Shown here: in pieces, positions 32,768-64,000 of the stretch
Layout of the letters: every line of letters begins with the position of its first letter
How positions within the stretch are numbered: position 1 is the first letter of the stretch
Assembly: GCF_036997485.1 (NCBI RefSeq)
Contig: NZ_JAWLPU010000003.1
Location: forward strand, 310,001-374,000
Length of the DNA stretch: 64,000 nucleotides
Source: Brachyspira pilosicoli
Lineage (GTDB): Bacteria; Spirochaetota; Brachyspiria; Brachyspirales; Brachyspiraceae
Reading direction: 5' to 3'
Program-made: the position numbers and the translations under genes
The notes under the pieces: model-generated
Seen by the model: only the letters and a program-made list of their open reading frames with translations
Told to the model about the DNA's origin: nothing
The model's database searches: none

Positions 32768-33055
32768 TTATAAATCTATTTTTTTATATAAACTTACATC
32801 CATTTCGCCGTCAATAAATTCAGCTAATTTAGGCACTATTGTTTTAAAATGGTTGCTGTTATTATGAGATTTTATAGCCTCTTCATCTTTCCACTCTTCT
32901 ATAAAAGTTAAAGATCTTCCATCTATGCTCTCATAAATATCATAAGCTATGCATCCCTCTTCTTTTCTGCTTTCTATTATTAACTCTTTAGCTAATTTTA
33001 AAAATCTCTCTTTTTTATCATTTTTTATATAATTTTTAGCTATAATTTTAATCAT
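32768..33055 (-). CDS. Antibiotic biosynthesis monooxygenase (ABM/YgiN-like) domain protein
   Basis: A 95-residue ferredoxin-like-fold protein: EEGCIAYDIYESIDGRSLTFIEEWKDEEAIKSHNNSNHF is the region typical of ABM/putative quinol monooxygenases, quoted here by its key parts (Tyr, Glu-Trp, His-Asn). It probably forms dimers. It overlaps the upstream pth by 8 bp, so translation is coupled. Substrate unknown. Confidence 0.85.
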   Translation of the reverse strand: MIKIIAKNYIKNDKKERFLKLAKELIIESRKEEGCIAYDIYESIDGRSLTFIEEWKDEEAIKSHNNSNHFKTIVPKLAEFIDGEMDVSLYKKIDL

Positions 33056-33644
33056 TATTTATATCCTTACTATTAATTCTTTTATTATATTTATTTTGTG
33101 CTATAGTGTATGATTCAAATAATATAGTCTTTATAGCTTCTATTACATTTGCCCCCAAATCATTATCAATATTCTCTCTTTCACTTTTACTAAAAGAAGA
33201 TAAAACATAATCATTAACCTTTTTTCCGAAACTCGGTCTTCCTATACCAACTCTCACCCTTATAAAATCATCAGTTTGTAACTGTGCTATTAAACTTTTT
33301 ATACCATTATGCCCTCCAGAACTTCCTCCTTTTTTTATTCTGAAAGTTCCAAATGGTATATCCATATCATCATATACTACTATTATATCTTCTGGTTTTA
33401 CGTTAAAGAATTTAGATATATAAACAGCAGATTCTCCAGATAGATTCATGAAAGTTTGAGGTTTTAATAGTATCAAATCTGTGCTATTAAGTTTTGTTCT
33501 TGTGAATAAAGATTTTTTTTTGTTGTTATCGAATTTTAGAGAGAGATTTTGTGCTAATTTATCAATAATAATAAATCCTATATTATGTCTATGATTTTTA
33601 TATTCTTCGCCTGGATTACCAAGTCCAATTATAAGCTTAGTCAT
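33048..33644 (-). CDS. pth: Peptidyl-tRNA hydrolase (canonical copy)
   Basis: A 198-residue enzyme that recycles peptidyl-tRNA. Catalytic residues match E. coli numbering: Asn10 and His20 in GLGNPGEEYKNHRHN, Asn of TFMNLSG, Asp of YDDMDIPFG, and the gate loop GGSSGGHNG. Its start overlaps the stop of a second pth gene (ATGA). It is the better-conserved of the two copies. Confidence 0.95.
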   Translation of the reverse strand: MTKLIIGLGNPGEEYKNHRHNIGFIIIDKLAQNLSLKFDNNKKKSLFTRTKLNSTDLILLKPQTFMNLSGESAVYISKFFNVKPEDIIVVYDDMDIPFGTFRIKKGGSSGGHNGIKSLIAQLQTDDFIRVRVGIGRPSFGKKVNDYVLSSFSKSERENIDNDLGANVIEAIKTILFESYTIAQNKYNKRINSKDINND

Positions 33645-34240
33645 AGATACTTCTTTTTAGATGTTTTATTATTAGATTCAAATAAAACCTTACATATAGC
33701 ATCAACTACATCATCGGTAATATCTTTTATTTTTTTTCTTTCATCTTTTGTGAAAGGAGCAAGTACAAAATCTGCTATTTCCTGACCTTCAGCAGGTGTA
33801 CCTATTCCAATACCAACTCTAGTGAAATTATTACTTTTTAACGAATCTTCTATGCTTTTTATACCGTTATGTTTTATAGGCCCTTCTTTTTCTTCATCAT
33901 CATTTTCATCAGCATCGGTTTTAGCAACTACAAGTTTAAACTCGCCTACAGGTATATTCATATCATCATATATAACAATAATATCATCAACAGCAATCTT
34001 CATAAAGCTAGCCATATATAAAGCAGCTTCTCCAGAAAGATTCATAAAAGTTTGCGGTTTTAAGAGAAGATATTCAATTTTACCATACTTAGCTTTACCA
34101 AATACGGTTTTCTTTTTTTTAATATCCAATTCTACATTAAGTTTCTTGGCAACCTTATCGAGTATCATATAACCAACATTATGTCTATGATTTTGATATT
34201 CACTACCAGGATTGCCAAGTCCCATAACTAATTTCATCAT
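33641..34240 (-). CDS. Second, divergent peptidyl-tRNA hydrolase
   Basis: A 199-residue Pth paralogue, adjacent to rplY. It keeps Asn10, His20, TFMNLSG and HNG, but the glycine-rich gate loop is replaced by a very acidic insertion (about residues 108-122, ADENDDEEKEG) and YDDMNIP replaces the usual YDDMDIP. So the catalytic centre seems intact, while the tRNA/peptide gate is remodelled. It overlaps the canonical copy by 4 bp. It may have altered substrate choice. This is inferred. Confidence 0.88.
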   Translation of the reverse strand: MMKLVMGLGNPGSEYQNHRHNVGYMILDKVAKKLNVELDIKKKKTVFGKAKYGKIEYLLLKPQTFMNLSGEAALYMASFMKIAVDDIIVIYDDMNIPVGEFKLVVAKTDADENDDEEKEGPIKHNGIKSIEDSLKSNNFTRVGIGIGTPAEGQEIADFVLAPFTKDERKKIKDITDDVVDAICKVLFESNNKTSKKKYL

Positions 34241-48487: not shown

Positions 48488-49186
48488 ATGAAAAAAAGTA
48501 TTATACTAATCACTATATTTCTAATGACATCAGTATTAGCATATTCACATAATTTTGTAATGAGTTTGTATATTCCATTGGCAGGAAGCCGTCCAAGTTT
48601 TTATCAAAATGGTCTTTTATCAGACTATTTAACAGAGCAGGCGGAATCTGCATTTGAAGTAGGAGTCATATTTCAGCCATCAATTTATTTTAAGATTGAG
48701 AAATTACATTATATAGTATTAGGAATAGATTTTGGCTGGTATAGAGATACATTTAAATTTTATAACAATTCTCAAGACTTTACACATGAATTTGATAGCA
48801 TTATTACAGGACTTAGTCTCGAATGGAAACCTTCAATATTTCAAATAGGTATAGGCGGCGGAGTTAAATTTCCTTTATCCGGTAAATATTGGACAGGAGA
48901 CAATTGTATATTATTAGATTATAAGGCTTTATCATCAAGATTTAATAATGTAGTTATACCTTATATAAAACTTTATACTGGTATAAATTTATTTTTAGTA
49001 AGTTTATTATTTTATGTTAATTTTGATATACCATATTATCAGATAAAAGATAATGTATCTTCATTAGGTGAAGGATATAGATATTCTACTCAATTAGCTT
49101 CGGTTGATATAGGTGTTCAAATTGGTATACATTTACCTATAATAGAATTTGGTGATAGCTATGATAATGCCAGACCGAAGTATTAA
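48488..49186 (+). CDS. Small outer-membrane-like beta-strand protein
   Basis: A 232-residue exported protein: signal peptide (about 1-20, ending LAYSH), then repeated alternating hydrophobic strands such as LEWKPSIFQIGIGGGVKF, IKLYTGINLFLVSLLFYVNF and STQLASVDIGVQIGIHL. This is the pattern of a small outer-membrane barrel. No specific family is recognised. A longer frame opens at 48371, but AAGGGA is placed for this ATG and only this start gives a signal peptide. Confidence 0.7.
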   Translation: MKKSIILITIFLMTSVLAYSHNFVMSLYIPLAGSRPSFYQNGLLSDYLTEQAESAFEVGVIFQPSIYFKIEKLHYIVLGIDFGWYRDTFKFYNNSQDFTHEFDSIITGLSLEWKPSIFQIGIGGGVKFPLSGKYWTGDNCILLDYKALSSRFNNVVIPYIKLYTGINLFLVSLLFYVNFDIPYYQIKDNVSSLGEGYRYSTQLASVDIGVQIGIHLPIIEFGDSYDNARPKY

Positions 49187-49210
49187 TAAACATAAGCCAA
49201 GTTTTTAATT
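49183..49210. repeat. Short repeat AACATAAGCCAAGTTTTTAATT, copy 1
   Basis: The same sequence recurs at 58740-58767 and 59031-59057. This copy and the 58740 copy bracket the catabolic operon. The rest of 49187-49457 is gene-free, with a degraded family A fragment near 49279. Confidence 0.7.
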
Positions 49211-49457: not shown

Positions 49458-50804
49458 TTAATTGTTAGATTCGCCTATTTTTCCTGCTTCAATATCTTTA
49501 ATTATTTGAGCATATTTTTCTTCTGTTATTTCATATTTTTTTACCAAAATCATTCCAAATATTAAGAATATAACAGGTCCAATACCAAACATCAAATTGA
49601 GCATCTTTAAAGTATATGGAGTTTGCTCTACATTAGGTACATAATTAGATATAGCCAAAACAAATCCTATTACGCCTCCAGAAACAGCCAATGCAATTTT
49701 ATAAGCAAAAGTATTCAAAGCAAATAATAGAGAATCTGATCTTTTACCCAATTTCCAGTGACTATATTCAGCAGTATCTGCCAACATAGAAATATTAGCC
49801 AAATTAAGAGCTGAAATAGCTATACCTGCTAATATTAAAGCAGCAACCAATAATATAATGTTTTTTCCTAAGAAATATTTCATAAAACAGCTAATAATTA
49901 ATCCAATAAAACCTAAATTGCTGACAGTCTTTTTACCTAATTTTTCAATTATTTTTGGAAGGAACATAAAACCAAGTAATCCTGATCCCATAGTAATAGG
50001 CATTAAATAAGGTATTAGTTCTGGTTTTTTTAGGAAATATATAATCCAATATGTAGTTACACCTGAAGTCATTTGCATACCAAAATCATAAGCTATTCTA
50101 ATCCAAACAACTTTCATAAAAGGTTTATTAACTTTAAGTATATTAATATAATCTTTAAGTTTATTCACAGGTAATTTGCCAAGATCTCTTTTTTCTTTAA
50201 CATTAGCAAAACATAACCAAGAACTTATTAACGATATAACAGATACTATTATACCATAATACATATAACCTTTACCAACATTTCCTCCTCCTAATGATTC
50301 TACCATAGGTATAGTTAATGAAGCTGCTAAAACAAAAGCTAAAAAGGCAAACCATCTCTGAAAAGCCAATATAGAAGTTTTATCTTTATCATCAGTTGTA
50401 AAAGTAGGCACCATTGACATCATAGGTATATCCAAAGCTGTATAAGCCATACCTATACCTATATATGTTATATAAGCCCATACAATTTTTCCTGCATTAG
50501 ATATATTTACAGGTATAAGCATCATAGTAAATGTGATAGCTGCAAATATAGGGACAAATAATAAATATGGTCTATATTTACCCCAGCGCGTATTTGTTTT
50601 ATCTGCTATAACTCCCATCATAGGGTCATTAATAGCATCCCATAATCTAGCAACAAAAAATAATGTTCCAACAGCAAGAGCACTTATTCCAAATACATCA
50701 GTAAAATATATCATCAAGTAATATGAAATAAAGCCCATATATAAATCTTTTCCTAAAGAACCTACTCCAAAGAAAAATTTTTCTCTAATAGTCAATTTAT
50801 CCAT
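49458..50804 (-). CDS. GPH-family sugar:cation symporter
   Basis: A 448-residue, 12-helix transporter. The motif ARLWDAINDPMMGVIADKTNTRWGKYRPY is the hallmark of glycoside-pentoside-hexuronide symporters (MelB/XynP), described here by its core NDPMMG and RWGKYRP. It imports a sugar or glycoside with H+ or Na+. AGGGAG places the start here rather than at the ATG seven codons upstream. Last gene of the operon, so it presumably imports the substrate. Confidence 0.93.
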   Translation of the reverse strand: MDKLTIREKFFFGVGSLGKDLYMGFISYYLMIYFTDVFGISALAVGTLFFVARLWDAINDPMMGVIADKTNTRWGKYRPYLLFVPIFAAITFTMMLIPVNISNAGKIVWAYITYIGIGMAYTALDIPMMSMVPTFTTDDKDKTSILAFQRWFAFLAFVLAASLTIPMVESLGGGNVGKGYMYYGIIVSVISLISSWLCFANVKEKRDLGKLPVNKLKDYINILKVNKPFMKVVWIRIAYDFGMQMTSGVTTYWIIYFLKKPELIPYLMPITMGSGLLGFMFLPKIIEKLGKKTVSNLGFIGLIISCFMKYFLGKNIILLVAALILAGIAISALNLANISMLADTAEYSHWKLGKRSDSLLFALNTFAYKIALAVSGGVIGFVLAISNYVPNVEQTPYTLKMLNLMFGIGPVIFLIFGMILVKKYEITEEKYAQIIKDIEAGKIGESNN

Positions 50805-50844
50805 AAAATTCTCCCTGTTTTTCATAATGATAATAATGAAATTA

Positions 50845-51987
50845 TTACATTAATTTTTGAAAAACCTTATTTATATCTTTATTATCCATTTTTACAGGAT
50901 TTAATCCCATACATCCATGATTCATAGAATCTTTTGTCATAATTTCGATTCCATCATCTGTCATAGAATATTCTTTTAGATTCATTTCTATACCTAATTG
51001 ATTAAATAACTCATCTAATTTATTTTGCAAAATAGAAACTGCCTCTTCAATATTGCAATTTGATTTATCCAAATAATCAACTAACATTTTTAAATTATGT
51101 TTTTTATCTCCCGCATAATCTAAAGCATATTTCTGCAATACTCCGCAAGCTAATCCATGAGGCACATTATATTGACTAGTTAATTGACAGCCCATAGCAT
51201 GCCCCATAGTTCCGCAGCAATGACTCATGGCAATACCTGCTAATGTAGAAGCAAAAGACATATTACTTCTTGCCTCTAAATCATTGCCGTTTAATCTAAC
51301 CTTATTTAAATTATTAAATATTAATTCTATTGCATTAATAGCTAAAATGTTTGTAAACGGATTTTCTATAGTAGAAACTAATGATTCTAAAGCATGACTA
51401 AGAGCATCTAAACCTGTAGAAATAGTTACGGCACTTGGCATACCAATAGTTAAAACAGGATCAACTATAGCTATTTTTGGACAAATTAAATCAGATGTTA
51501 TAGAATCTTTTAAATGAGTTTTTGAATCTGATATAACAGCATATTTTGAAACTTCTGAACCTGTTCCTGATGTTGTAGGTAATGCTATTATTGGTATTGT
51601 TTTTTTTATTTCCAATTTATTAGGATTAGAATCAAGATACTCTGTAATATTTGTATTAGTATTAGCAACAACAGAGGCAGCTTTAGCTATATCTATAGAA
51701 CTTCCTCCGCCAATAACTAAAATAGTATCTATATTATTAGATTCTATATATTTCGCTAAATCCATAACTTGTAAATTGGTTGGGTTAGGAGTAACTTCAG
51801 AATATATATACTTTATGGAATTAGATTTTATTATATCATTTGTATATGCTTGATTAAGTAAAAACTTATCTGTTACCAATAAAACATTATTTTGTGATAA
51901 TTCTTTAATATACTTATTGATTTCTTTATATTTATTTTCACCAAAAATAATTTTAGTAGGTAATAAATATTCAAAATTTACTAACAT
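50845..51987 (-). CDS. Iron-containing alcohol dehydrogenase
   Basis: A 380-residue group III ADH (FucO/PduQ-like). NAD site GGGSSIDIAKA, the TTSGTGSEVS loop, metal-ligand segments ALSHALESLVS and CCGTMGHAMGCQ followed by VPHGLACG. Such enzymes reduce short aldehydes such as lactaldehyde or glycolaldehyde, fitting an aldehyde released by the aldolase in this operon. The gap to the upstream nucleoside hydrolase is 13 bp. Confidence 0.93.
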   Translation of the reverse strand: MLVNFEYLLPTKIIFGENKYKEINKYIKELSQNNVLLVTDKFLLNQAYTNDIIKSNSIKYIYSEVTPNPTNLQVMDLAKYIESNNIDTILVIGGGSSIDIAKAASVVANTNTNITEYLDSNPNKLEIKKTIPIIALPTTSGTGSEVSKYAVISDSKTHLKDSITSDLICPKIAIVDPVLTIGMPSAVTISTGLDALSHALESLVSTIENPFTNILAINAIELIFNNLNKVRLNGNDLEARSNMSFASTLAGIAMSHCCGTMGHAMGCQLTSQYNVPHGLACGVLQKYALDYAGDKKHNLKMLVDYLDKSNCNIEEAVSILQNKLDELFNQLGIEMNLKEYSMTDDGIEIMTKDSMNHGCMGLNPVKMDNKDINKVFQKLM

Positions 51988-52000
51988 AAATAACTCTCCA

Positions 52001-52882
52001 TTAATTCATCTTGGATATCATTTCATAAAATAATTCATTAAATTTTTCTAAATTAATTATTTTTGTTGGTATATCTACAATATTAACTTCATCATCTGAT
52101 CTGCTTCCATCATCAACTTGTAGCCAGCCTGTTTTCATGTTATCTTCTATTTTTACTATACGTTTATTTTCAGTTGTAAATAATTCAGGATTTGTTAAAT
52201 ATATAGCCGTACATAAATCCCAGTTAATGAATACTTTTCTGTTTCCATACTGAGCATTTATATCATCAATCCAAGCAGCTAATATAGGTTTGCTCCATTT
52301 CATAAATTTAGTATCCATATCCAACATACCTTCAAGGTCTTCTAATTTATAAATAGCATCTTGAGTACATTGAGAAGTTAATATTGAAAGGTTAGGGCAA
52401 TTATAAATTACTTTAGCTGCTGATTTATAATCTATAGAGAAATTTAATTCATTTAATAGAACACCATTCAAATATAAAGGCTCTAAAATTCCTCCCATTA
52501 TTATCAAGCGTTTAATTTTTTTAAAGAAATCAGGGTCTTTAGTATATGCCCCAGCTATATTACATAATGAACCTATAGCCAATACAACAATTTCACCCTT
52601 ATTCTTATTAACTGTATTTACTAAAAAATCTACAGCTTCACTATTATAATCTTCAGGAGTTCTTCCGCCCTTATAAAAAGGCACATCAGTTATATCCAAA
52701 TCTTCGAACATTTGTTTTGTGTTATAATACACAACATGTTCAGCATTATTGGCGAATGTACAAGTTATTCCCAATAAATCAATGTCTTTGTGAGCATACA
52801 AATAAGCAAATGTTAAACCATCATCAATATCACTTCTTTTTACTCCCATTGTATTATCACAATCTAAAATTACTTTTGTCAT
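52001..52882 (-). CDS. Nucleoside hydrolase family protein
   Basis: A 293-residue IunH-fold hydrolase. The metal site is a lengthened version of the usual DxDxxxDD: DCDNTMGVKRSDIDDG, then CTFANN, and the later NWDLCTAIYLTNPELF with the catalytic region. Classical members cleave nucleosides to base and ribose. The altered loop suggests a changed sugar or base. GGAGG is placed for the ATG at 52882. An earlier TTG is not. Confidence 0.85.
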   Translation of the reverse strand: MTKVILDCDNTMGVKRSDIDDGLTFAYLYAHKDIDLLGITCTFANNAEHVVYYNTKQMFEDLDITDVPFYKGGRTPEDYNSEAVDFLVNTVNKNKGEIVVLAIGSLCNIAGAYTKDPDFFKKIKRLIIMGGILEPLYLNGVLLNELNFSIDYKSAAKVIYNCPNLSILTSQCTQDAIYKLEDLEGMLDMDTKFMKWSKPILAAWIDDINAQYGNRKVFINWDLCTAIYLTNPELFTTENKRIVKIEDNMKTGWLQVDDGSRSDDEVNIVDIPTKIINLEKFNELFYEMISKMN

Positions 52883-52918
52883 TTTGACCTCCAAAAAATA
52901 TATATATATAATTATTTT

Positions 52919-53536
52919 TTAATTATTTTTCCAAGTTTCATAAATAGTTTTAAAAATTAAATATATAGAATAACTTCCAGCATCCATAAAACCTATACTG
53001 CGTTCTTGTAAAAATTTTGCTCTTCCCTTAGTGGCTTTCATATTTATAGTAGCATTAGCTCCATTTAATGCTCCTTGCTGTGCAATATTCATTGCTTCTA
53101 CAAGGTCATTGCCATTATATTTTTCCAATTCATCAACTGCTCCATATAAAGCATCTACCATAGTTTTTTCACCTCTATTAGTATTTGCCATTTCATTAAT
53201 AGCATGAATTGTATTTAGTACGCTATCTTTAAAAGTTTTGACATTTAATTGTTCATTGTTTAATGTTATAGCCATTTGTATAAATAATGTGCTAAATATA
53301 GGACCGCTTGCACCTCCCATACTTCCTAACATGGCATAACCAATACTTTTTACAACTTCTTTGTCTGCTACATTAGAATCTAATTTTTTTATTTCTTCGT
53401 AGGCGGTTCTGAAACCTCTTGAAATTGTTAAACCATGGTCTCCGTCTCCAGCTTCGCAGTCTAATTTACATAAATATTCAGCATTTTCACTGAATACTGT
53501 ATCTAAATTTTTAGATAATTCTATGAACTTGTTCAT
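52919..53536 (-). CDS. Dihydroxyacetone kinase subunit DhaL
   Basis: A 205-residue ADP/ATP-binding subunit. DCEAGDGDHG places the Mg ligands Asp26, Asp31 and Asp33, and GSMGGASGPIFSTLF is the conserved nucleotide loop. The subunit works with DhaK, encoded 4 kb upstream in the same operon. No DhaM phosphotransferase is present, so ATP rather than the PTS is the likely phosphate donor. That is inference. Confidence 0.92.
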   Translation of the reverse strand: MNKFIELSKNLDTVFSENAEYLCKLDCEAGDGDHGLTISRGFRTAYEEIKKLDSNVADKEVVKSIGYAMLGSMGGASGPIFSTLFIQMAITLNNEQLNVKTFKDSVLNTIHAINEMANTNRGEKTMVDALYGAVDELEKYNGNDLVEAMNIAQQGALNGANATINMKATKGRAKFLQERSIGFMDAGSYSIYLIFKTIYETWKNN

Positions 53537-53540
53537 TATA

Positions 53541-54377
53541 TTATTCTCCTAATAATTTTTTTAAATAGTTGTATCCTTTTTTTGCCTCAGCAAATGGATC
53601 TTTATCAGCATTCCAAATAAATAAAGCATCTCCAACCTGAGTACCACTCTCTACAAAAGTTTCCATATCTAAGTATCCGTTATATTTATTTTTATTCAAA
53701 ACCTCTATTAATTTATGCCAATCAATATGTCCTGTACCTGGAACGCCTCTATGATTTTCTGTTACATGAACACAGCCTATGTAATTAATATATTTATCTA
53801 CGCTTTCATATATATTATTTTCTTCTATATTCATGTGAAATGTATCAACTAAAAGCTTAACATTATCAAGTCCTATCATGTCTACAAACTCAGCGGCTTC
53901 TTCAACTTTATTAAAAAAATCTGTTTCAAACCTGTTTATAACTTCAACATTCAATCCTACGCCTTTACTTTTAGCATATTCACCAACTTCTTTTAAAACT
54001 TCACTAGAATTTTTCCATCTTATTTTTCTGCTTTCTTTAGAAAAACCCTGCCATGGTGCATATAATACTCCATTAATAAATAAAGCCTTAGCCCTATGTG
54101 CCTTATCTACAGCATTCTTAAGATAATTTAATGCATTGAGTCTTATATCTTTATTAACGCTGCTTGGATCTGTTTCTGGAGATACTCCTGTTCCGCAAAT
54201 TATTTCTAGACCTAAATTTCTTGCAGCATCAAAAGAATTGAATAATTTTTCTTCGCTAGCTCCATAAAGAGAAATTTCAACTCCATTAAATCCTATATCT
54301 TTCACCTTACCTAAAGCTGGTATAATGTCATCTGTCCATTCTTTGCAAAACATAGACATATGTACTGCTATTTTCAT
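53541..54377 (-). CDS. TIM-barrel sugar-phosphate isomerase/epimerase
   Basis: A 278-residue AP-endonuclease-2-type barrel. Metal ligands lie in NVEVINRF (Glu), LVDTFHMNIEE (Asp/His), HIDW and YLDMETF (Glu). Related enzymes interconvert ketoses or ketose phosphates (for example LerI in tetritol breakdown, hydroxypyruvate isomerase). Here it may isomerise or epimerise the phosphorylated intermediate. The gap to DhaL is 4 bp. Confidence 0.88.
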   Translation of the reverse strand: MKIAVHMSMFCKEWTDDIIPALGKVKDIGFNGVEISLYGASEEKLFNSFDAARNLGLEIICGTGVSPETDPSSVNKDIRLNALNYLKNAVDKAHRAKALFINGVLYAPWQGFSKESRKIRWKNSSEVLKEVGEYAKSKGVGLNVEVINRFETDFFNKVEEAAEFVDMIGLDNVKLLVDTFHMNIEENNIYESVDKYINYIGCVHVTENHRGVPGTGHIDWHKLIEVLNKNKYNGYLDMETFVESGTQVGDALFIWNADKDPFAEAKKGYNYLKKLLGE

Positions 54378-54409
54378 TTAAAGTCCTCCTAATATTTAAT
54401 TTTTATAAA

Positions 54410-55138
54410 TTATTTTTTGGAATCTAAAACTTTAGATATGGATTGAGCCATTATTGTGTTTTCATATACAATAGGTCTATTCATATCATCATATCCTATA
54501 AAAGCTTTCATTATTACAGGCTTATCACTGTCTATATTCAATATGTTGGCTTCTGATTCGTTTATATTAATTGATTCTTCAATATCAATTCCTTTAGAAA
54601 ACTTTAACCCAAAATTTAATTCAAGAACCCTAAATATAGATTGTGTAACCCCCGCTACAGAAAAATACTCAGGTGTTAAATCTGCAGCATAAATACAAGG
54701 AATATAAGATCTTGTTATCCAAATAGGCTGATTATCTATATACCTAATCCTCTCAAAAAAATAACATTCATCTTTTTCTTTTATAGATAAATGTTTAGCA
54801 ACCTTACTATCACTTTTAACAATCTTAAATTTATTAATTTTTGTAGTAGGCTTATGTCCCGCTTTTTGAACCTCTTTGCTGAAACTTCGCATCCAAGTCC
54901 AATCTTGAGTATACAAATCATTAATAAATGTACCTACGCCATGAACAGTTCTTATAATACCTTCTTCATGTAAAAGTTTAAAAGCTTTTCTAACTGTTAC
55001 TCTGCTAACGCTATATTCCTGCTGAGTTTTTAATTCGCTGTTCATTAAAGAACCTCTTTTCAAAGTTCCGTTTTCTATTTTCTTTTTAATATCCTCAGCA
55101 ATAACTTTATATTTAAATGAATCTGAATCTTTAATAAT
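54410..55138 (-). CDS. GntR-family (HutC-type) regulator, probable ATT start
   Basis: A 242-residue repressor. Residues 8-70 are the winged helix (IAEDIKKKIENGTLKRGS, SVSRVTVRKAFKLL), the rest a UbiC-like effector domain (GYDDMNRPIVYENTIM). The helix-1 region, essential for the family, lies upstream of every in-frame ATG/GTG. The frame remains open back to ATT at 55138, placed 6 bases after AGGTGG. It overlaps the aldolase stop, so coupling is likely. ATG-only starts would delete part of the DNA-binding domain. It probably controls this operon. Confidence 0.85.
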   Translation of the reverse strand: MIKDSDSFKYKVIAEDIKKKIENGTLKRGSLMNSELKTQQEYSVSRVTVRKAFKLLHEEGIIRTVHGVGTFINDLYTQDWTWMRSFSKEVQKAGHKPTTKINKFKIVKSDSKVAKHLSIKEKDECYFFERIRYIDNQPIWITRSYIPCIYAADLTPEYFSVAGVTQSIFRVLELNFGLKFSKGIDIEESININESEANILNIDSDKPVIMKAFIGYDDMNRPIVYENTIMAQSISKVLDSKK

Positions 55139-55139
55139 C

Positions 55140-55982
55140 TTAGTCCACCTTTTTACAATATTTATTTGCTATATCTACTATATCACTATATAATGTTCTC
55201 ATATCTCTAAGATTATCAGAACATACATAGTCATTCCATACACTTCTTCCAACCGCATAACCTGAAGCTCCTGCTTTACCAGAAATTTCAAGCTGCTTTT
55301 TGAATTCGCTATTTGTTATTCCTGAACTTAATATAATCCATACAGTATTAATTAAATCATTAATACTTTTACATCTATCAAAATTCTCTTCATAAGAAAG
55401 ATTATTTATATTGCCAGGAAAAACAAGCTTATAAACATCTACCTTATATTTTGAAAGCCTTTTCAACATTCTAATAGTTAAATCATAATTATCAGGGCTT
55501 TCCTTGTATAAAATAGGTTCAAGCATAAAAGGAATATTATGTTTTTCGCATTCATTACTAACATATTCTACAATTCTATCTATATCATCAGAAAATTTCA
55601 TATCAGGGTGATAGTAAACAAATAATTTAATCATATTGCATCCATCTTCTGATAATTTTTCTATTGATACTTTTTTAGTAAGATAATCATCATTGATGGT
55701 TTCAATATTATAATTATTATTTTCTATCCCTACCAACACTTCTCCTATATTAATCTCATCTATTATTTTTGTTCCATTAAAAAAATAATAAGTATCTATC
55801 AAAACGGCAGAAGTTAAATCTTTTATTTCATTTATCAGCCTAAGTTTTTCTTTAAGAACAATATCTTTATTACTAATATCCGCTCCCTTCATTTTGCATG
55901 TAAATACATCATGGTGGTCTATAGCAAAAATATGAAATATGCCGTTTTTTAAAAGTTTTTTTAGCTTATAATTTTTTTCCAT
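55140..55982 (-). CDS. Class I aldolase of the LacD/YihT family
   Basis: A 280-residue Schiff-base aldolase. The three key residues of LacD align: Lys119 (MIKLFVYYHPD), Glu155 (PFMLEPILY) and Schiff-base Lys185 (VDVYKLVFPG). LacD cleaves tagatose 1,6-bisphosphate and YihT cleaves sulfofructose 1-phosphate. Both give dihydroxyacetone phosphate. It starts directly after the isomerase and should split the DhaK/L product. The exact sugar is unknown. Confidence 0.82.
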   Translation of the reverse strand: MEKNYKLKKLLKNGIFHIFAIDHHDVFTCKMKGADISNKDIVLKEKLRLINEIKDLTSAVLIDTYYFFNGTKIIDEINIGEVLVGIENNNYNIETINDDYLTKKVSIEKLSEDGCNMIKLFVYYHPDMKFSDDIDRIVEYVSNECEKHNIPFMLEPILYKESPDNYDLTIRMLKRLSKYKVDVYKLVFPGNINNLSYEENFDRCKSINDLINTVWIILSSGITNSEFKKQLEISGKAGASGYAVGRSVWNDYVCSDNLRDMRTLYSDIVDIANKYCKKVD

Positions 55983-57362
55983 TTAAACTCCTTTCTCTAA
56001 CTTTATTGTTTTTATGTTCATTCTTTTAGCAAAAGTTCTTATTCTTTTCTCTATATGTTTAGGGCATATAATCAAATGATGTTCTATTCCGTTTTCAAAA
56101 ATAGTATCTACTACTTGATTTACACTGTACTTTTCTCCTTCCTGAGAAAAATCTGTAAAAAATCCTCTAGTACCGCTATATCCTTTATTAGATTTTACTA
56201 TATTTGCATCTACAGCAAGAATTCTCCCGTCATTGCTATATCTTATTATAGAGGCTTCCTGAGGTTTAAAAGAATAATCATAAGAAAGACCCATTAATTC
56301 TCTATTTGGATTTTTTCTGTCAAGCATAGGATGTGATATTATTCTTACATCTTCATTAGGCTGAAAATCCTTGCTTCCTATACCGCAATGCCATAATAAT
56401 AATTGATTTGTCTTGCTATTTAAACTTGTTAAATCCATCAATGTAGGATTAGAATTAGATAATTCCTTAGCAATTAAAAGAGAAACAGCACCTCCTATAT
56501 CACCCTCACAAGCTACAGGAACACCTAATTCATTACCAATTAAACTATATAATACACAAGGAACTATTTGTAATGTATCTTGAAAATCAGGCCAGCAAGT
56601 ACCTGCTATACAATCTATGGCATTTTCTTTTACATATTGTTCAATAACTATATAAGCTTTTGCACTATTTATTAGAGATTTTTCTAATGCCTCAAATTTA
56701 TTACAAGAGTTTAAAATTAAGTTTTTTGCTCGTTCTATATCATCTTCTTTTAATAACTCTATTTTTTTCATGATATAATTAATATCTATTTTGTTAAATC
56801 TCATATTTGGAAAATATTCTTTAAGATGATTGTTTTCTAAATTATAAAAAGTAGGGGCAACATCTCCTATTATACCAATTGTAGAATTAGAAAATTTATT
56901 TATAGCTTTAGATACAATGATATTATCTAAAAGTTTAATATTTAACGAATTATCAAATAAATTACCATAATACCAATCTACTTTTACCTTATTTTTAAAC
57001 TTTCTCATAGCAATACTAGCAAAAATATTAGCAGAAACAGCAGCATTTAATTGAATATCTCCATCTTCAAATGGCTCTTCTTTAAACCAAACTCCTATAG
57101 AATAATTGGTATTTTCAAAAGCCATCATGATATCTCCAGAAGAAAAATCTGCAAGCATTATTAAAAGATAATCTATTTTCTGCTGTTCAAAATATTTTCT
57201 AGCCTGATAAGCTTCTTCTCCTGTTTTTATTGGCCCATAAGTTATTAAATCAATATTATTATCTTGACTAAATTTAACTATTTCTTTCATAGCTTTTTTA
57301 TCAATCTCATGATAAATACCATAATAATTATCACTATTTGTTGTCAACATTCCTAACTTCAT
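55983..57362 (-). CDS. Sugar isomerase of the L-fucose/L-arabinose isomerase superfamily
   Basis: A 459-residue protein with an N-terminal Rossmann-like half and a C-terminal metal-site half. Candidate ligands are Glu in VACEGDIGG, Asp in LMDLTSLNSK and His in LLWHCGIGSK. The family converts aldoses to ketoses. It sits one base before the aldolase and three bases after DhaK, so the three are translated together. Substrate unknown, with a deoxy or unusual sugar plausible. Confidence 0.8.
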   Translation of the reverse strand: MKLGMLTTNSDNYYGIYHEIDKKAMKEIVKFSQDNNIDLITYGPIKTGEEAYQARKYFEQQKIDYLLIMLADFSSGDIMMAFENTNYSIGVWFKEEPFEDGDIQLNAAVSANIFASIAMRKFKNKVKVDWYYGNLFDNSLNIKLLDNIIVSKAINKFSNSTIGIIGDVAPTFYNLENNHLKEYFPNMRFNKIDINYIMKKIELLKEDDIERAKNLILNSCNKFEALEKSLINSAKAYIVIEQYVKENAIDCIAGTCWPDFQDTLQIVPCVLYSLIGNELGVPVACEGDIGGAVSLLIAKELSNSNPTLMDLTSLNSKTNQLLLWHCGIGSKDFQPNEDVRIISHPMLDRKNPNRELMGLSYDYSFKPQEASIIRYSNDGRILAVDANIVKSNKGYSGTRGFFTDFSQEGEKYSVNQVVDTIFENGIEHHLIICPKHIEKRIRTFAKRMNIKTIKLEKGV

Positions 57363-57365
57363 ATA

Positions 57366-58364
57366 TTATCTCCTAAATAATGGGCTGTCAGCCTTATAAT
57401 CATAATATTTTAAAATTTCTTCATCTGCTTTACAAATTGCTATTGAAAAACCAGACATCTCTTGAGTTGTTACATAAGTTCCAACCCAATTCCTAACGAT
57501 TTTTATGTTTATGTTATGTAAATATTTTTCTATTTCATTATATATAATAAATAGTTCCATATAAGTCATAGAACCAGCATTATTAAGAAGAACTAAAACT
57601 TCATCATTTTTATTAAAAGGCTTATCATCAATAATTCTATCTAACATATACTTTACCAATTCACAAGCCGTAGGCAATTTCATTTTTCCTGTTCCTGCCT
57701 CACCATGAACCCCCATACCAACTTCTATTTCATCATCTTCTAATTCAAATGTTTTTAAGCCTGTCTCAGGATGCGTACCGCTGTTAATAGCAACACTTAA
57801 AGTTCTTGTGTTGTCTCTTACTCTTTGTGCAAACTCTATAAGTTTTGATATTTCCATTCCATCTTCAGCAGCAGCACAAGTTAATTTGAAAGGAAAAAAT
57901 AAACCTGCTGTACCTCTTCTTTCACTCTCCATACCTTTAGGGGCACTTGAAATATCGTCCCATAAAACAACCATTTTTACTTTTATTCCTTCAGCTTCTG
58001 CTAACATAATAGCCATTTTACTATTTAAAATATCACCAGCATGAGAAGATACAAGTATCAAAATATTTTCATGTCCGTCGCTATGCAGTCTCTTTATAGC
58101 TTTTATCATCTCTAAAGGAGAAGGAGCCGTAAATATTTTTCCGCATACATTAGCATCGAATAGTCCCTCACCAACTAAATCTATCATAGCAGGTTCATGA
58201 CCAGAGCCATTACCAATAATAACAGCTACTTTATTACTGTCTTTTTTATTTTTACGGTACAATATATTACCATCCAATAAAATTACCCTGTCGCTATTAG
58301 ATTTCTGATATCCTTCCAACATTTCAAGTAAAATATTTTCCTTACTATTAAGTATTTTTTTCAT
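57366..58364 (-). CDS. Dihydroxyacetone kinase subunit DhaK
   Basis: A 332-residue substrate subunit. GNGSGHEPAM (His56) and VGMGVHGEAGTGK (His220, which forms the hemiaminal with the ketose) match DhaK. GGAG is placed for the ATG at 58364. A longer frame would run through the operator palindromes and is rejected. First gene of the operon. DhaK/L-type enzymes phosphorylate ketoses at C1, including tetroses in other bacteria, so the substrate need not be dihydroxyacetone. Confidence 0.93.
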   Translation of the reverse strand: MKKILNSKENILLEMLEGYQKSNSDRVILLDGNILYRKNKKDSNKVAVIIGNGSGHEPAMIDLVGEGLFDANVCGKIFTAPSPLEMIKAIKRLHSDGHENILILVSSHAGDILNSKMAIMLAEAEGIKVKMVVLWDDISSAPKGMESERRGTAGLFFPFKLTCAAAEDGMEISKLIEFAQRVRDNTRTLSVAINSGTHPETGLKTFELEDDEIEVGMGVHGEAGTGKMKLPTACELVKYMLDRIIDDKPFNKNDEVLVLLNNAGSMTYMELFIIYNEIEKYLHNINIKIVRNWVGTYVTTQEMSGFSIAICKADEEILKYYDYKADSPLFRR

Positions 58365-58415
58365 GTTTGTTTCTCCATTTGATAAGATAGCAAAATGTTT
58401 AATTAAATAAAAAAT

Positions 58416-58465
58416 AATACATGTATTATATACATGTATTATATACATGTATTACTCATTGTCAA
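58416..58465 (-). promoter_or_regulatory. Operon promoter with three phased TACATGTA operators
   Basis: On the minus strand TTGACA (58465-58460), 16-bp spacer, TATAAT (58443-58438). Three palindromic cores TACATGTA at 58444-58451, 58431-58438 and 58418-58425 are spaced exactly 13 bp and cover the spacer/-10, the start and the early leader. A fourth related half-site, AATACATGTTATT, lies at 58548-58560. This is the layout of a tightly repressed promoter. Confidence 0.8.
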
Positions 58466-58739
58466 TTAAAAAGCAGAAAAAATCTAAAAAAATATCATAT
58501 TTTTTGTTTAGAGAAATACTCTGAAAGCAGAAAATAATTTTTTTGTGAATACATGTTATTATTTTTTACTATATTTTTATATTAATAGCTTAAAATTATA
58601 AAAATATAATCAACTGTATTTTTGTGATAAATTTGTAGGCATACTATATATTTTTTACTTGATGATACTAAAAAAATAATGATAATATTAAATATGATAA
58701 ATTAAAATTGTAATATATAAATAAAAAAACTGACCTACA

Positions 58740-58862
58740 TTAACAAACATAAGCCAAGTTTTTAATTACTATTTGTGGTGGTTTTGCACACACATCCATA
58801 TTTCTTTTTGCTACCGAATGAAGTATATTTAGGTATGACCCAAAAAGCAAAAGGACTGCATT
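58740..58862. repeat. Short repeat copy 2 and a degraded inverted family A element
   Basis: 58740-58767 repeats 49183-49210. 58773-58862 is a mutated inverted A element (GTGGTGGTTTTGC to AAAGGACTGCATT). Between the operon promoter and valS no gene is present. Confidence 0.7.
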
Positions 58863-59012: not shown

Positions 59013-59057
59013 AAAAAACTTGACTTACATCAATAAACATAAGCCAAGTTTTTAATT
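59013..59057 (-). terminator. valS terminator containing the short repeat (copy 3)
   Basis: On the minus strand AAAAACTTGGCTTA pairs with TAAGTCAAGTTTTT (one mismatch/wobble), followed by a T run, 20 bp past the valS stop. It includes the third copy of the AACATAAGCC repeat. Confidence 0.7.
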
Positions 59058-61969: not shown

Positions 61970-63280
61970 ATGCTTAAAAAAATATTTATACTTTCTGTTA
62001 TTACAGCCATTATGGCAATATCATGTAATAATAAAACTGATACAGCTTCATCAGCAGAGCTTCCTGTAATAGATGAAAATACTGAAACAGAATTAGAAGT
62101 GTGGGGCTGGAATGTTGCTGCTCGTGCATTAACAGAAATGGCGGATATATTTATGCAAAAATATCCAAAGATAAAAGTAACCGTTCAAGAATTTGGAGGC
62201 GTACAGGCTTATGAAAAATATGGAGTTGTATTAGCATCAGGAAAAGAAATACCAGATATAATGCAAATAGAGAGTGATTATGTTCAGACTTATACTGAAA
62301 CATATCCTCAAAGATTTATGGATTTAAAAAATTATATAGATATAGAAGGCAAAGTAGACCCTTCAAAACTTTCTACTAGTTATGACAGTGAAGGAAGATT
62401 GGTTTCTATACCTTGGGATTCTGGTCCGGTGGTAATGTTTTATAGAGAAGATATGTTTAAAGATGCTGGAATTGACCCTAACTCTATAGTAACTTATGAT
62501 GATTTTATTAAAGCAGGAAAACAGCTTCAGGAAAAATTTCCTAATGTAAAAATGACAGGTTTCCCATACAGCAGAGATGATAATTTGTGGAGATGTTTAT
62601 TAGTACAAAATGAAGTATATTTTTTAAACGCTCAAGGAGAAATTACTATTTCATCTGATAAAGCTGTAGAAAGCATATCTATGTTAAAAAGATTTATAGA
62701 TGAAGGCATAGCTATGAATACAGTAAATTGGGATAGTTCTATAATGGCAAATAAAAACGGAGATATAGCTTCATATATAATGGGCGGCTGGTGGGGCGGC
62801 ACTATAAAAGACCAAATGCCTGAGATGAAAGGTAAATGGAAAATTATGCCTATGCCAGCATATACTGAAGGAGGAGTTAGAGCTTCTTCTTTGGGTGGTT
62901 CTGATTTAACTATTACAGCTACTGACCCTATTAAACAAGCTGCGGCAATAGAATTCCTTAAACAAACATTGATGAATGTTGATAATCAGATTATAATGTA
63001 TGAGAAATATGGGCTATTCCCGTCATATTTGCCTGCTTATGATGACCCAAGATTTTTGAAGTCTGATGATTATTTCGGAGATGAATATAATAATATTTTA
63101 GCAAATGTTACAAAAGAAATACCTCAGGTAATATATACTACAAAAGATTATGCTGAAATTAGAAGTGTTTCTATGAGTACTTATGAAGAGGTGTTGAATA
63201 ATAATGCTGATATAAAACAAGCCTTAGAAAATGCTGCAAATCAAATAAGCAGTTCTACAGGAAGAAAAATAGCAAAATAA
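61970..63280 (+). CDS. Sugar ABC transporter substrate-binding lipoprotein (first copy)
   Basis: A 436-residue family 1 solute-binding lipoprotein: signal with AISC, then LEVWGWNVAARALTEMADIF, IPWDSGPVVMFYREDMFKDAGI and the MGGWWGGTIKDQMPEMKG ligand region. It binds an oligosaccharide or sugar at the membrane for an ABC importer not in the window. A second, closely related gene starts 159 bp downstream with its own promoter. Confidence 0.92.
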   Translation: MLKKIFILSVITAIMAISCNNKTDTASSAELPVIDENTETELEVWGWNVAARALTEMADIFMQKYPKIKVTVQEFGGVQAYEKYGVVLASGKEIPDIMQIESDYVQTYTETYPQRFMDLKNYIDIEGKVDPSKLSTSYDSEGRLVSIPWDSGPVVMFYREDMFKDAGIDPNSIVTYDDFIKAGKQLQEKFPNVKMTGFPYSRDDNLWRCLLVQNEVYFLNAQGEITISSDKAVESISMLKRFIDEGIAMNTVNWDSSIMANKNGDIASYIMGGWWGGTIKDQMPEMKGKWKIMPMPAYTEGGVRASSLGGSDLTITATDPIKQAAAIEFLKQTLMNVDNQIIMYEKYGLFPSYLPAYDDPRFLKSDDYFGDEYNNILANVTKEIPQVIYTTKDYAEIRSVSMSTYEEVLNNNADIKQALENAANQISSSTGRKIAK

Positions 63281-63438: not shown

Positions 63439-64000
63439 TATGGCTAAAAAAAAATTTTATAGTTTTTTGTTAGTATTGGTTGTAGTTTTTATGTGGGCTT
63501 GTTCTGGCAATAAAGAGGCTGGGCAAACGGCGTCTAAACTTCCAACAATAGATGCTAATACAGAAACAGAGATAACAGTGTGGGGATGGAATGTTGCTGC
63601 TAAAGCTTTAATGGAAACAGCAAAGGTGTTCAATGAGAAGTATCCAAAAATAAAAGTAAATGTACAAGAATTTGGATTGGCTCAAAATGTGTACGAAAGG
63701 TATGGCGTAATATTGTCTTCAGGAAATGGGGTTCCTGACGTAATTCAGATAGAAAGTGATTATATACAAACTTTTGCTGAAACTTATCCGCAATATTTTT
63801 TTGATATGAAAGACTATATAACTATTGACGGGGTAGTGGACCCATCTAAAATTGCTTCAAGTTATGACAGCACAGGTAAATTAGTATCTATACCTTGGGA
63901 TTCTGGTCCTGTTGTTATGTTCTACAGAGTTGATTTATTTAAAGAAGCAGGAATTGATCCTAATACTATAGTAACTTTCGATGATTATATTGCTGCTGGA
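63439..64000 (+). CDS. Sugar ABC transporter substrate-binding lipoprotein (second copy, cut by window end)
   Basis: The first 187 residues are visible, and the frame is still open at the window edge. Lipobox FMWAC is at residues 16-20. ITVWGWNVAAKALMETAKVF, ESDYIQTFAETYPQYF and SIPWDSGPVVMFYR match the first copy closely. AGAAGGAG precedes the ATG. A tandem duplication is clear. Small differences in the ligand region suggest different specificity or regulation. Confidence 0.92.

Follow-up and report, generated by a model that had tools for sequence, protein, structure and literature searches.

A nine-gene operon of Brachyspira pilosicoli that may degrade a nucleoside-like pentofuranoside by way of a ketose 1-phosphate

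What compound is consumed by an operon that joins a divergent nucleoside hydrolase to a sugar isomerase, a ketose epimerase, a dihydroxyacetone (DHA) kinase-like pair and a class I aldolase? The question is raised by a row of nine genes in Brachyspira pilosicoli, located in the 64,000 nucleotide (nt) stretch of contig NZ_JAWLPU010000003.1 analyzed here (assembly GCF_036997485.1, positions 310,001 to 374,000; hereafter the window, whose own numbering is used throughout). We tentatively read the row, with a confidence somewhat short of even, as an operon under GntR control for the catabolism of a nucleoside-like pentofuranoside, which would be degraded through a pentulose 1-phosphate to dihydroxyacetone phosphate (DHAP) and a two-carbon alcohol. 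Gene content and order, their conservation, protein families, active-site motifs, a promoter and operator-like sites form the basis of this reading, and each reaction and the choice of sugar are proposals drawn from them. The genes and the promoter region, in the order of presumed transcription, are as follows.

58438..58465, minus strand: sigma-70-type promoter, TTGACA-16-TATAAT, 12/12 consensus matches
58415..58454, minus strand: three tandem TAATACATGTAT sites 13 bp apart, overlapping the promoter; presumed GntR operators
57366..58364, minus strand: DhaK-like kinase subunit (Dak1); pocket motif SSH, where Escherichia coli DhaK has KNY
55983..57362, minus strand: aldose-ketose isomerase of the FucI/AraA superfamily, distant relative of SftI/SqvD (NCBIfam, profile, fold)
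55140..55982, minus strand: class I aldolase, DeoC/LacD family; nearest solved relatives YihT, the sulfofructose phosphate (SFP) aldolase
54410..55138, minus strand: GntR/UTRA regulator (Pfam); probable start near ATT 55138
53541..54377, minus strand: ketose 3-epimerase, D-psicose/D-tagatose 3-epimerase family, TIM barrel (NCBIfam, PDB)
52919..53536, minus strand: DhaL-like kinase subunit (Dak2; Pfam, NCBIfam)
52001..52882, minus strand: divergent nucleoside hydrolase (IU_nuc_hydro); N-terminus of the DNTMGVxRSDxDDG type
50845..51987, minus strand: iron-containing alcohol dehydrogenase (Pfam, NCBIfam)
49458..50825, minus strand: GPH-family sugar:cation symporter (Pfam, NCBIfam)

As the original prediction had it, the open reading frames form a single co-directional row, from 58364 to 49458, with small gaps (0-36 nt; in operon order 3, 0, 1, 32, 4, 36, 13 and 19 nt, taking ATT 55138 as the gntR start and ATG 52882 as that of the hydrolase). 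The families it had named also hold for eight of the nine products, which exceed the Pfam cut-offs for Dak1, DeoC/LacD, GntR plus UTRA, AP_endonuc_2, Dak2, IU_nuc_hydro, Fe-ADH and MFS_2/GPH; for the isomerase itself, Pfam gave no hit. The start of dhaK was placed at ATG 58364, and a longer frame reaching 58448 would overlap the operators. ATG 52882, preceded by GGAGG, is the best start for the hydrolase. For gntR there is no in-frame ATG, GTG or TTG ahead of the helix-turn-helix, and the full motif is obtained only by reading from about ATT 55138, which is preceded by AGGTGG and lies directly past the aldolase stop; translation from this ATT is likely. G+C content is 25-32% per 4 kb across the window.

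Conservation sets the operon apart from a chance assembly. A seven-gene core (dhaK, isomerase, aldolase, gntR, epimerase, dhaL, nucleoside hydrolase) stands in identical order in four genomes: the host, Defluviitalea phaphyphila and two further genomes of the class of the latter, G481 and G890. The genome-neighborhood check proposed at the outset thus found seven of the nine genes recurring in order in three other genomes, which, with the restricted occurrence of the exact operator-like site described below, is more than chance would give. D. phaphyphila Alg1, reportedly a fermenter of brown algae (PMC4818487), was the one true relative among 17 stretches returned by an isomerase scan of a genome collection, which used exact peptide patterns and therefore reaches close relatives only. 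The Defluviitalea proteins are 76% (DhaK), 60% (isomerase), 53% (aldolase), 60% (GntR), 66% (epimerase), 60% (DhaL), 77% (hydrolase) and 59% (alcohol dehydrogenase) identical to those of the host, and their genes share its order; an NhaC-type antiporter, placed before the alcohol dehydrogenase, takes the place of the GPH symporter, and a TauE/SafE permease gene lies directly past the dehydrogenase (locus L032). In G481 and G890, the core adjoins an ATP-binding cassette (ABC) importer with a PRK11622-type binding protein, above the cut-off in the scan of G481 and named by eye in G890.

Elsewhere the operon is scarce. The isomerase was searched against overlapping genome samples, in which 108/392 genomes of the host phylum matched at E 1e-3, with identity above 29% over most of the protein only in the window's own genome (short stretches reach 42%); 9/392 genomes from the order of Defluviitalea matched at E 1e-30, two with the operon and seven without; and 4/391 from its class matched at E 1e-60, two with the operon. 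At that last threshold, 4/22 genomes in the family of G481 matched, one of them carrying the operon. In the order of G890, one of seven genomes matched, and a phylum search gave 1/398 at E 1e-100. Within the host genus, an orthologue occurs only in the window's own genome (1/26; 23 of the 26 appear in the host-phylum match rows, and the other three belong to the searched sample without a match), and G088 and G136 hold relatives of 26-27% identity. Two more genomes match the isomerase profile well, G846 (E 1.6e-84), where the DNA read contains none of the other operon genes, and G810 (E 7.0e-80), whose contig spans just 3.6 kb. The operon was not found in the 7-8 kb downstream of valS read in 15 relatives, and it is rare and probably acquired. 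A 29-nt repeat flanks it (49182-49210, 58739-58767 and 59029-59057) and is part of a terminator-like hairpin of valS; we rejected these repeats as insertion scars, since 12/15 genus relatives read carry copies, with up to 6 mismatches, no more than about 1.4 kb from the end of valS, so that they seem to be dispersed, terminator-like elements.

Ahead of dhaK stands the sole 12/12 promoter in the 11.1 kb scanned, in which promoter-like sites overall are at the chance level (86 found, 84.0 expected). With one mismatch allowed, TAATACATGTAT has five matches in the window, four of them at the promoter, with 1.7 expected; 4/100 shuffles reached five, so this count is modest on its own. The Defluviitalea locus has six matches (0/100 shuffles reached six), with the exact site twice before dhaK, and among 168 fetched loci the exact site occurs only before dhaK of these two genomes, six listed loci being copies of the two places. 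From this distribution we infer that TAATACATGTAT is the GntR operator. In G481, TAATACAAG-like repeats were seen by eye ahead of the importer.

What the enzymes might do is best approached through their active sites. The TIM-barrel enzyme had been compared to the tetritol enzyme LerI; no LerI model is among its hits, and it scores 200.6 bits with the psicose 3-epimerase family NF051856, below the equivalog cut-off of 300, and E 3e-42 with tagatose 3-epimerases in the PDB (8xix). By these matches, it is a predicted ketose 3-epimerase, and a tetritol role of the LerI type was set aside. The aldolase (PF01791, 64.6 bits, cut-off 23.8) has YihT and then LacD as its nearest solved relatives; its Schiff-base lysine, K185, is invariant in 4/4 orthologues, and it keeps an SSG...GR stretch in common with YihT, which we take to bind the phosphate of DHAP.

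The nucleoside hydrolase (122.2 bits, cut-off 34.2) is 29% identical to a second hydrolase of the host, and D7, D9, D20, D21, E145, N147 and D222, to which we assign calcium- and sugar-site roles, are invariant in 5/5 aligned rows, the second hydrolase included. E145 and N147 presumably correspond to the ligands of the 5'-hydroxyl in IU-nucleoside hydrolases. A tryptophan occupies the position of the catalytic histidine, assumed to be H241 of nucleoside hydrolases, and no characterized specificity among the RihA/B/C and UriH equivalogs was reached (best 72.8 of 382 bits). Nucleoside hydrolases are pentofuranosidases. The iron-containing alcohol dehydrogenase hits a lactaldehyde reductase model with 217 of 523 bits.

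The isomerase reaches 147 bits with the NCBIfam model of SftI, and the four orthologues together span 119-147, all missing the equivalog cut-off of 700. One orthologue has a sub-threshold hit to the L-fucose isomerase C-terminal domain (20.2 of 29.3 bits); a PDB search with a profile finds L-arabinose isomerase at E 0.02, and one with the single protein finds nothing at E 1e-3. An AlphaFold model from two sequences has a predicted local distance difference test score (pLDDT) of 53.9 and a predicted TM-score (pTM) of 0.48, and because of the former its fold matches lend weak support: the top 35 comprise 33 arabinose isomerase chains, followed by D-arabinose and L-fucose isomerases, with TM-scores by query length of 0.34-0.39. 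E286 and D310 are invariant in the four orthologues, and their spacing equals what we take to be that of E337 and D361 in FucI. The protein is thus best described, from its profile scores, as a predicted divergent relative of sulfoquinovose isomerases; the proposed fucose-type isomerase stands as to superfamily, through the fold and the weak C-terminal hit, and falls as to the nearest family, which is SftI rather than FucI.

In the kinase, Dak1 (335 bits, cut-off 31.4) and Dak2 (152 bits, cut-off 27) are recognized with ease, the GSGHEP, GD and GVHGE motifs, presumably catalytic, are retained, and DhaK reaches 301 of the 406 bits of equivalog TIGR02363. At E 1e-30, there are 73 Dak1 matches in 55/351 genomes from the class of Defluviitalea. 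Two of these, from the Defluviitalea and G890 operons, were dropped and their sequences taken from longer loci, so that the tree held 76 rows: 71 class-sample DhaKs, the four operon DhaKs and that of locus L051. The residues ahead of x-Gly-Asp in the 71 are KNY (35), GNY (26), LNH (5), NNY (2), GNF (2) and GCY (1); SSH, which replaces KNY close to the catalytic aspartate, is found in 4/4 operon DhaKs and 0/71 of the sample, and L051 has SNH. In the tree, midpoint-rooted for display, the four operon DhaKs cluster in a single clade (100/99), with L051 at the next node (99/88), the LNH group at the one beyond it (100/98) and the 66 other rows apart from all of these (100/98). The operon DhaK neither groups with canonical DhaKs nor carries their KNYxGD pocket motif, and its separate clade and SSH motif disfavor a plain DHA kinase; we infer that the operon kinase acts on a carbonyl compound longer than DHA. 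The original prediction had also called the kinase ATP-driven for want of DhaM, which is indeed not among the nine genes; DhaM was not searched for genome-wide.

The neighborhoods of the nearest other DhaKs are also of note. That of L051 belongs to a row (L051:4622-13006) comprising a phosphotransferase system component (by eye), a 3-epimerase, DhaL, DhaK, a class II aldolase, an SftI-like isomerase and a 724-aa protein, apparently the same logic built a second time in a different way. The pairing of 3-epimerase and class II aldolase is not limited to the clade of the operon DhaKs, because the GNY locus L158 has both. Four of the five LNH DhaKs were covered (L164 was left out). Two of them, the one in L162 and the second of the two in L165, are found in DhaL-DhaK-LsrF rows beside an autoinducer-2 (AI-2)-type thiolase (432 and 437 bits, cut-off 297), which suggests that DhaKL serves there in place of LsrK; for the other two, in L163 and first in L165, the open reading frames listed include no LsrF-type neighbor.

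Taken together, these assignments suggest the following route. The GPH symporter would import a nucleoside-like pentofuranoside, from which the divergent hydrolase would free the pentose; the FucI/SftI-type isomerase would convert it to the 2-ketose, and the TIM-barrel enzyme would epimerize this at C3, for example ribulose to xylulose. DhaK and DhaL would then phosphorylate C1 of the ketose with ATP, the class I aldolase would split the ketose 1-phosphate into DHAP and a two-carbon aldehyde, which the alcohol dehydrogenase would reduce, regenerating NAD. Much of the earlier scheme (aldose to ketose, ketose 1-phosphate, DHAP plus aldehyde, and alcohol) is retained here through the hydrolase in the conserved core, the aldolase lysine and SSG...GR stretch and the separate DhaK clade; it is amended by the extra 3-epimerase step, by an isomerase nearer to sulfoquinovose isomerases, and by a dehydrogenase and a transporter that are not common to all four operons.

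Several observations weigh against the pentofuranoside route. The alcohol dehydrogenase is common only to the host and Defluviitalea operons and has no match in the DNA read around those of G481 and G890, where the exact TAATACATGTAT site was not found either (2/4 operons). With three types among four operons (GPH symporter, NhaC-type antiporter, ABC importer), the transporters disagree on one substrate class. Plain ribose would be redundant, because the host has a hydrolase beside a ribokinase above the NCBIfam cut-off (306.7 against 299.65) as well as transketolase-like halves. These halves score below the bacterial cut-off, one match having two in-frame TAA codons, and at G000:C1:900964-902703 (L073/L074) the transketolase seems split in two. 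Ordinary ribonucleosides are probably already served, which favors either another sugar or a fermentative pathway that carries its own NADH sink, and the sugar of the operon may be other than plain ribose. Finally, the only named family of the isomerase acts on a hexose sulfonate, and a distant homologue of it lies near a sulfopropanediol dehydratase. The latter locus, L046:4986-12182, holds an SftI-like isomerase and a PfkB-like gene (by eye) near the (2S)-3-sulfopropanediol dehydratase HpsG, which is above its cut-off, and is a possible sulfosugar cluster.

These last facts also speak for a sulfosugar route, a further variant of Embden-Meyerhof-Parnas sulfoglycolysis (sulfo-EMP), in which an SqvD-like isomerase, a C1 kinase and a YihT-like aldolase would be followed by the dehydrogenase reducing sulfolactaldehyde or sulfoacetaldehyde, with TauE-type export in Defluviitalea; YihT as the best PDB relative of the aldolase and the TauE/SafE gene past the dehydrogenase fit as well. 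We regard it as quite improbable nonetheless, given the low SftI scores of all four orthologues, the lack of any sulfoquinovosidase, SqvB, YihR or PfkB kinase named by Pfam or NCBIfam among the nine proteins, and the absence of a nucleoside hydrolase and a 3-epimerase from the pathways in the accessible text of their descriptions (PMC9594981, PMC12890257). Equally improbable is the idea that the aldolase cleaves an unphosphorylated ketose to DHA and an aldehyde, leaving DhaK and DhaL as an ordinary DHA kinase. The families and retained motifs would suit it, but the operon DhaKs are not among the 66 rows on the KNY/GNY side of the tree and have SSH near the catalytic aspartate, and YihT, the nearest characterized relative of the aldolase with its conserved SSG...GR stretch, acts on a ketose 1-phosphate (PMC9594981).

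Substrates of another size or substitution must be weighed too. A hexose or hexulose glycoside such as a psicofuranoside, whose hexulose would be freed, epimerized among psicose, fructose and tagatose and cleaved as the 1-phosphate to DHAP and glyceraldehyde, the latter reduced to glycerol, agrees with the D-psicose/D-tagatose matches of the epimerase, the C6 ketose phosphates used by LacD and YihT relatives and the glucose-type substrate of SftI. The pentofuranosidase nature of the hydrolase family, the sugar-site E-x-N that the operon hydrolase keeps and the lead of L-arabinose isomerases in the fold search with the low-confidence model make it distinctly unlikely. A pathway dedicated to salvaging 5-deoxy- or 5-substituted ribosides (5'-deoxyadenosine, methylthioadenosine or other C5-modified compounds) by enzymes unrelated to those of the DHAP shunt would yield the same end products, DHAP and a two-carbon aldehyde, as the shunt as outlined in PMC10986504 and PMC6079011. 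Since the host ribokinase could not phosphorylate O5 of a C5-modified ribose, it would also explain a second hydrolase in the host. It is unlikely as well: E145 and N147, the presumed 5'-hydroxyl binders, are kept in 4/4 orthologues, and GntR control and a sugar importer suggest a substrate taken up from outside rather than just an internal by-product. Highly improbable, in our estimate, is a more particular proposal, that the operon serves C5-modified ribofuranosides beyond the reach of ribokinase, for example seaweed arsenosugars (5-deoxy-5-dimethylarsinoyl ribosides), giving DHAP and a substituted acetaldehyde and then a substituted ethanol. The closest relative of the operon belongs to a brown-alga fermenter with a TauE-type permease past the operon, and dimethylarsinoylethanol is a product of anaerobic algal decay; the retained 5'-hydroxyl residues argue against it, the sequences give no sign of an arsenic or sulfur substrate, and a literature search on arsenosugars and gene clusters found no degradation genes named in titles or in the openings of abstracts.

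Two tandem pairs elsewhere in the window were noted by eye: peptidyl-tRNA hydrolase-like genes at 33048-33644 and 33641-34240, overlapping by 4 nt, and similar extracellular solute-binding-like proteins at 61970-63280 and 63440-64000, beyond valS from the operon.

How does the operon compare with described systems? No described pathway with this exact gene set was found in the open-access literature, the scope of the survey to the exclusion of subscription papers, in keeping with the original prediction, whose claim of enzyme families other than those of the fucose pathway and the DHAP shunt also stands. The fucIKAO system for L-fucose and D-arabinose shares the reaction logic and an iron alcohol dehydrogenase, but its kinase and aldolase families differ, the operon isomerase is too divergent for a Pfam hit, and the FucI, FucK (FGGY) and FucA families have no hits at E 1e-3 among the nine proteins. 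An apiose pathway was rejected, its transketolase chemistry being unfit for an aldolase. The DHAP shunt for 5-deoxyribose disposal also combines a nucleosidase, a kinase, an isomerase and an aldolase to give DHAP and an aldehyde, but in the available outlines its kinase precedes the isomerase and the enzymes are MtnK, MtnA and a metal-dependent aldolase (PMC10986504, PMC6079011); MtnK, MtnA and a class II aldolase are not named among the nine proteins, and the rest of the genome was not searched for them. Sulfo-EMP and sulfo-EMP2 resemble the operon in a FucI-family isomerase (sulfo-EMP2), a C1 kinase, a YihT-type or class II aldolase and a reductase, and differ, in the text accessible, in a PfkB-type kinase (sulfo-EMP), a sulfoquinovosidase and SqvB/YihR, with neither a nucleoside-type hydrolase nor a 3-epimerase (PMC9594981, PMC12890257); sulfoglycolytic kinases and step orders likewise differ from those of the operon as far as these sources and PMC11659671 describe them. 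Sulfoquinovosidase, a mutarotase/SqvB and a PfkB-type kinase are not among the nine proteins; beyond the operon only PfkB was searched for, with seven matches in the host genome, which holds one Dak1 gene. Membership in sulfo-EMP was rejected on the missed SftI cut-off and these partner enzymes not in the operon, and membership in the DHAP shunt, the fucose pathway and the haloarchaeal pathway on the families not present in it. The last, the non-carboxylating pentose bisphosphate pathway, converts the ribose of guanosine to DHAP and ethylene glycol via ribulose 1-phosphate (PMC9700705), using guanosine phosphorylase, ribose 1-phosphate (R1P) kinase, ribose 1,5-bisphosphate (R15P) isomerase, ribulose bisphosphate (RuBP) phosphatase and a FucA-type aldolase, none of them named in the operon. 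By the features compared, the operon appears to work like a ketose 1-phosphate/DHAP pathway that is outside every described one.

A close parallel is man-made. The engineered D-xylulose 1-phosphate and D-ribulose 1-phosphate pathways to ethylene glycol, as presented in PMC6443609 and PMC6995148, line up an isomerase, a tagatose epimerase, a C1 kinase, an aldolase releasing DHAP and glycolaldehyde and a FucO-type reductase; they employ FucK or ketohexokinase and FucA or human aldolase B, whereas the operon has DhaK/DhaL and a LacD/YihT-type aldolase, adds a nucleoside hydrolase and is a natural unit. If the proposed route is correct, functions would be assigned to the DhaK clade of altered pocket and to two subfamilies, a divergent one of nucleoside hydrolases and an orphan one of isomerases, providing an enzyme set for two-carbon chemical production, and the operon would be the natural counterpart of the engineered pentulose 1-phosphate route to ethylene glycol, built from other kinase and aldolase families and starting from a nucleoside-like compound.

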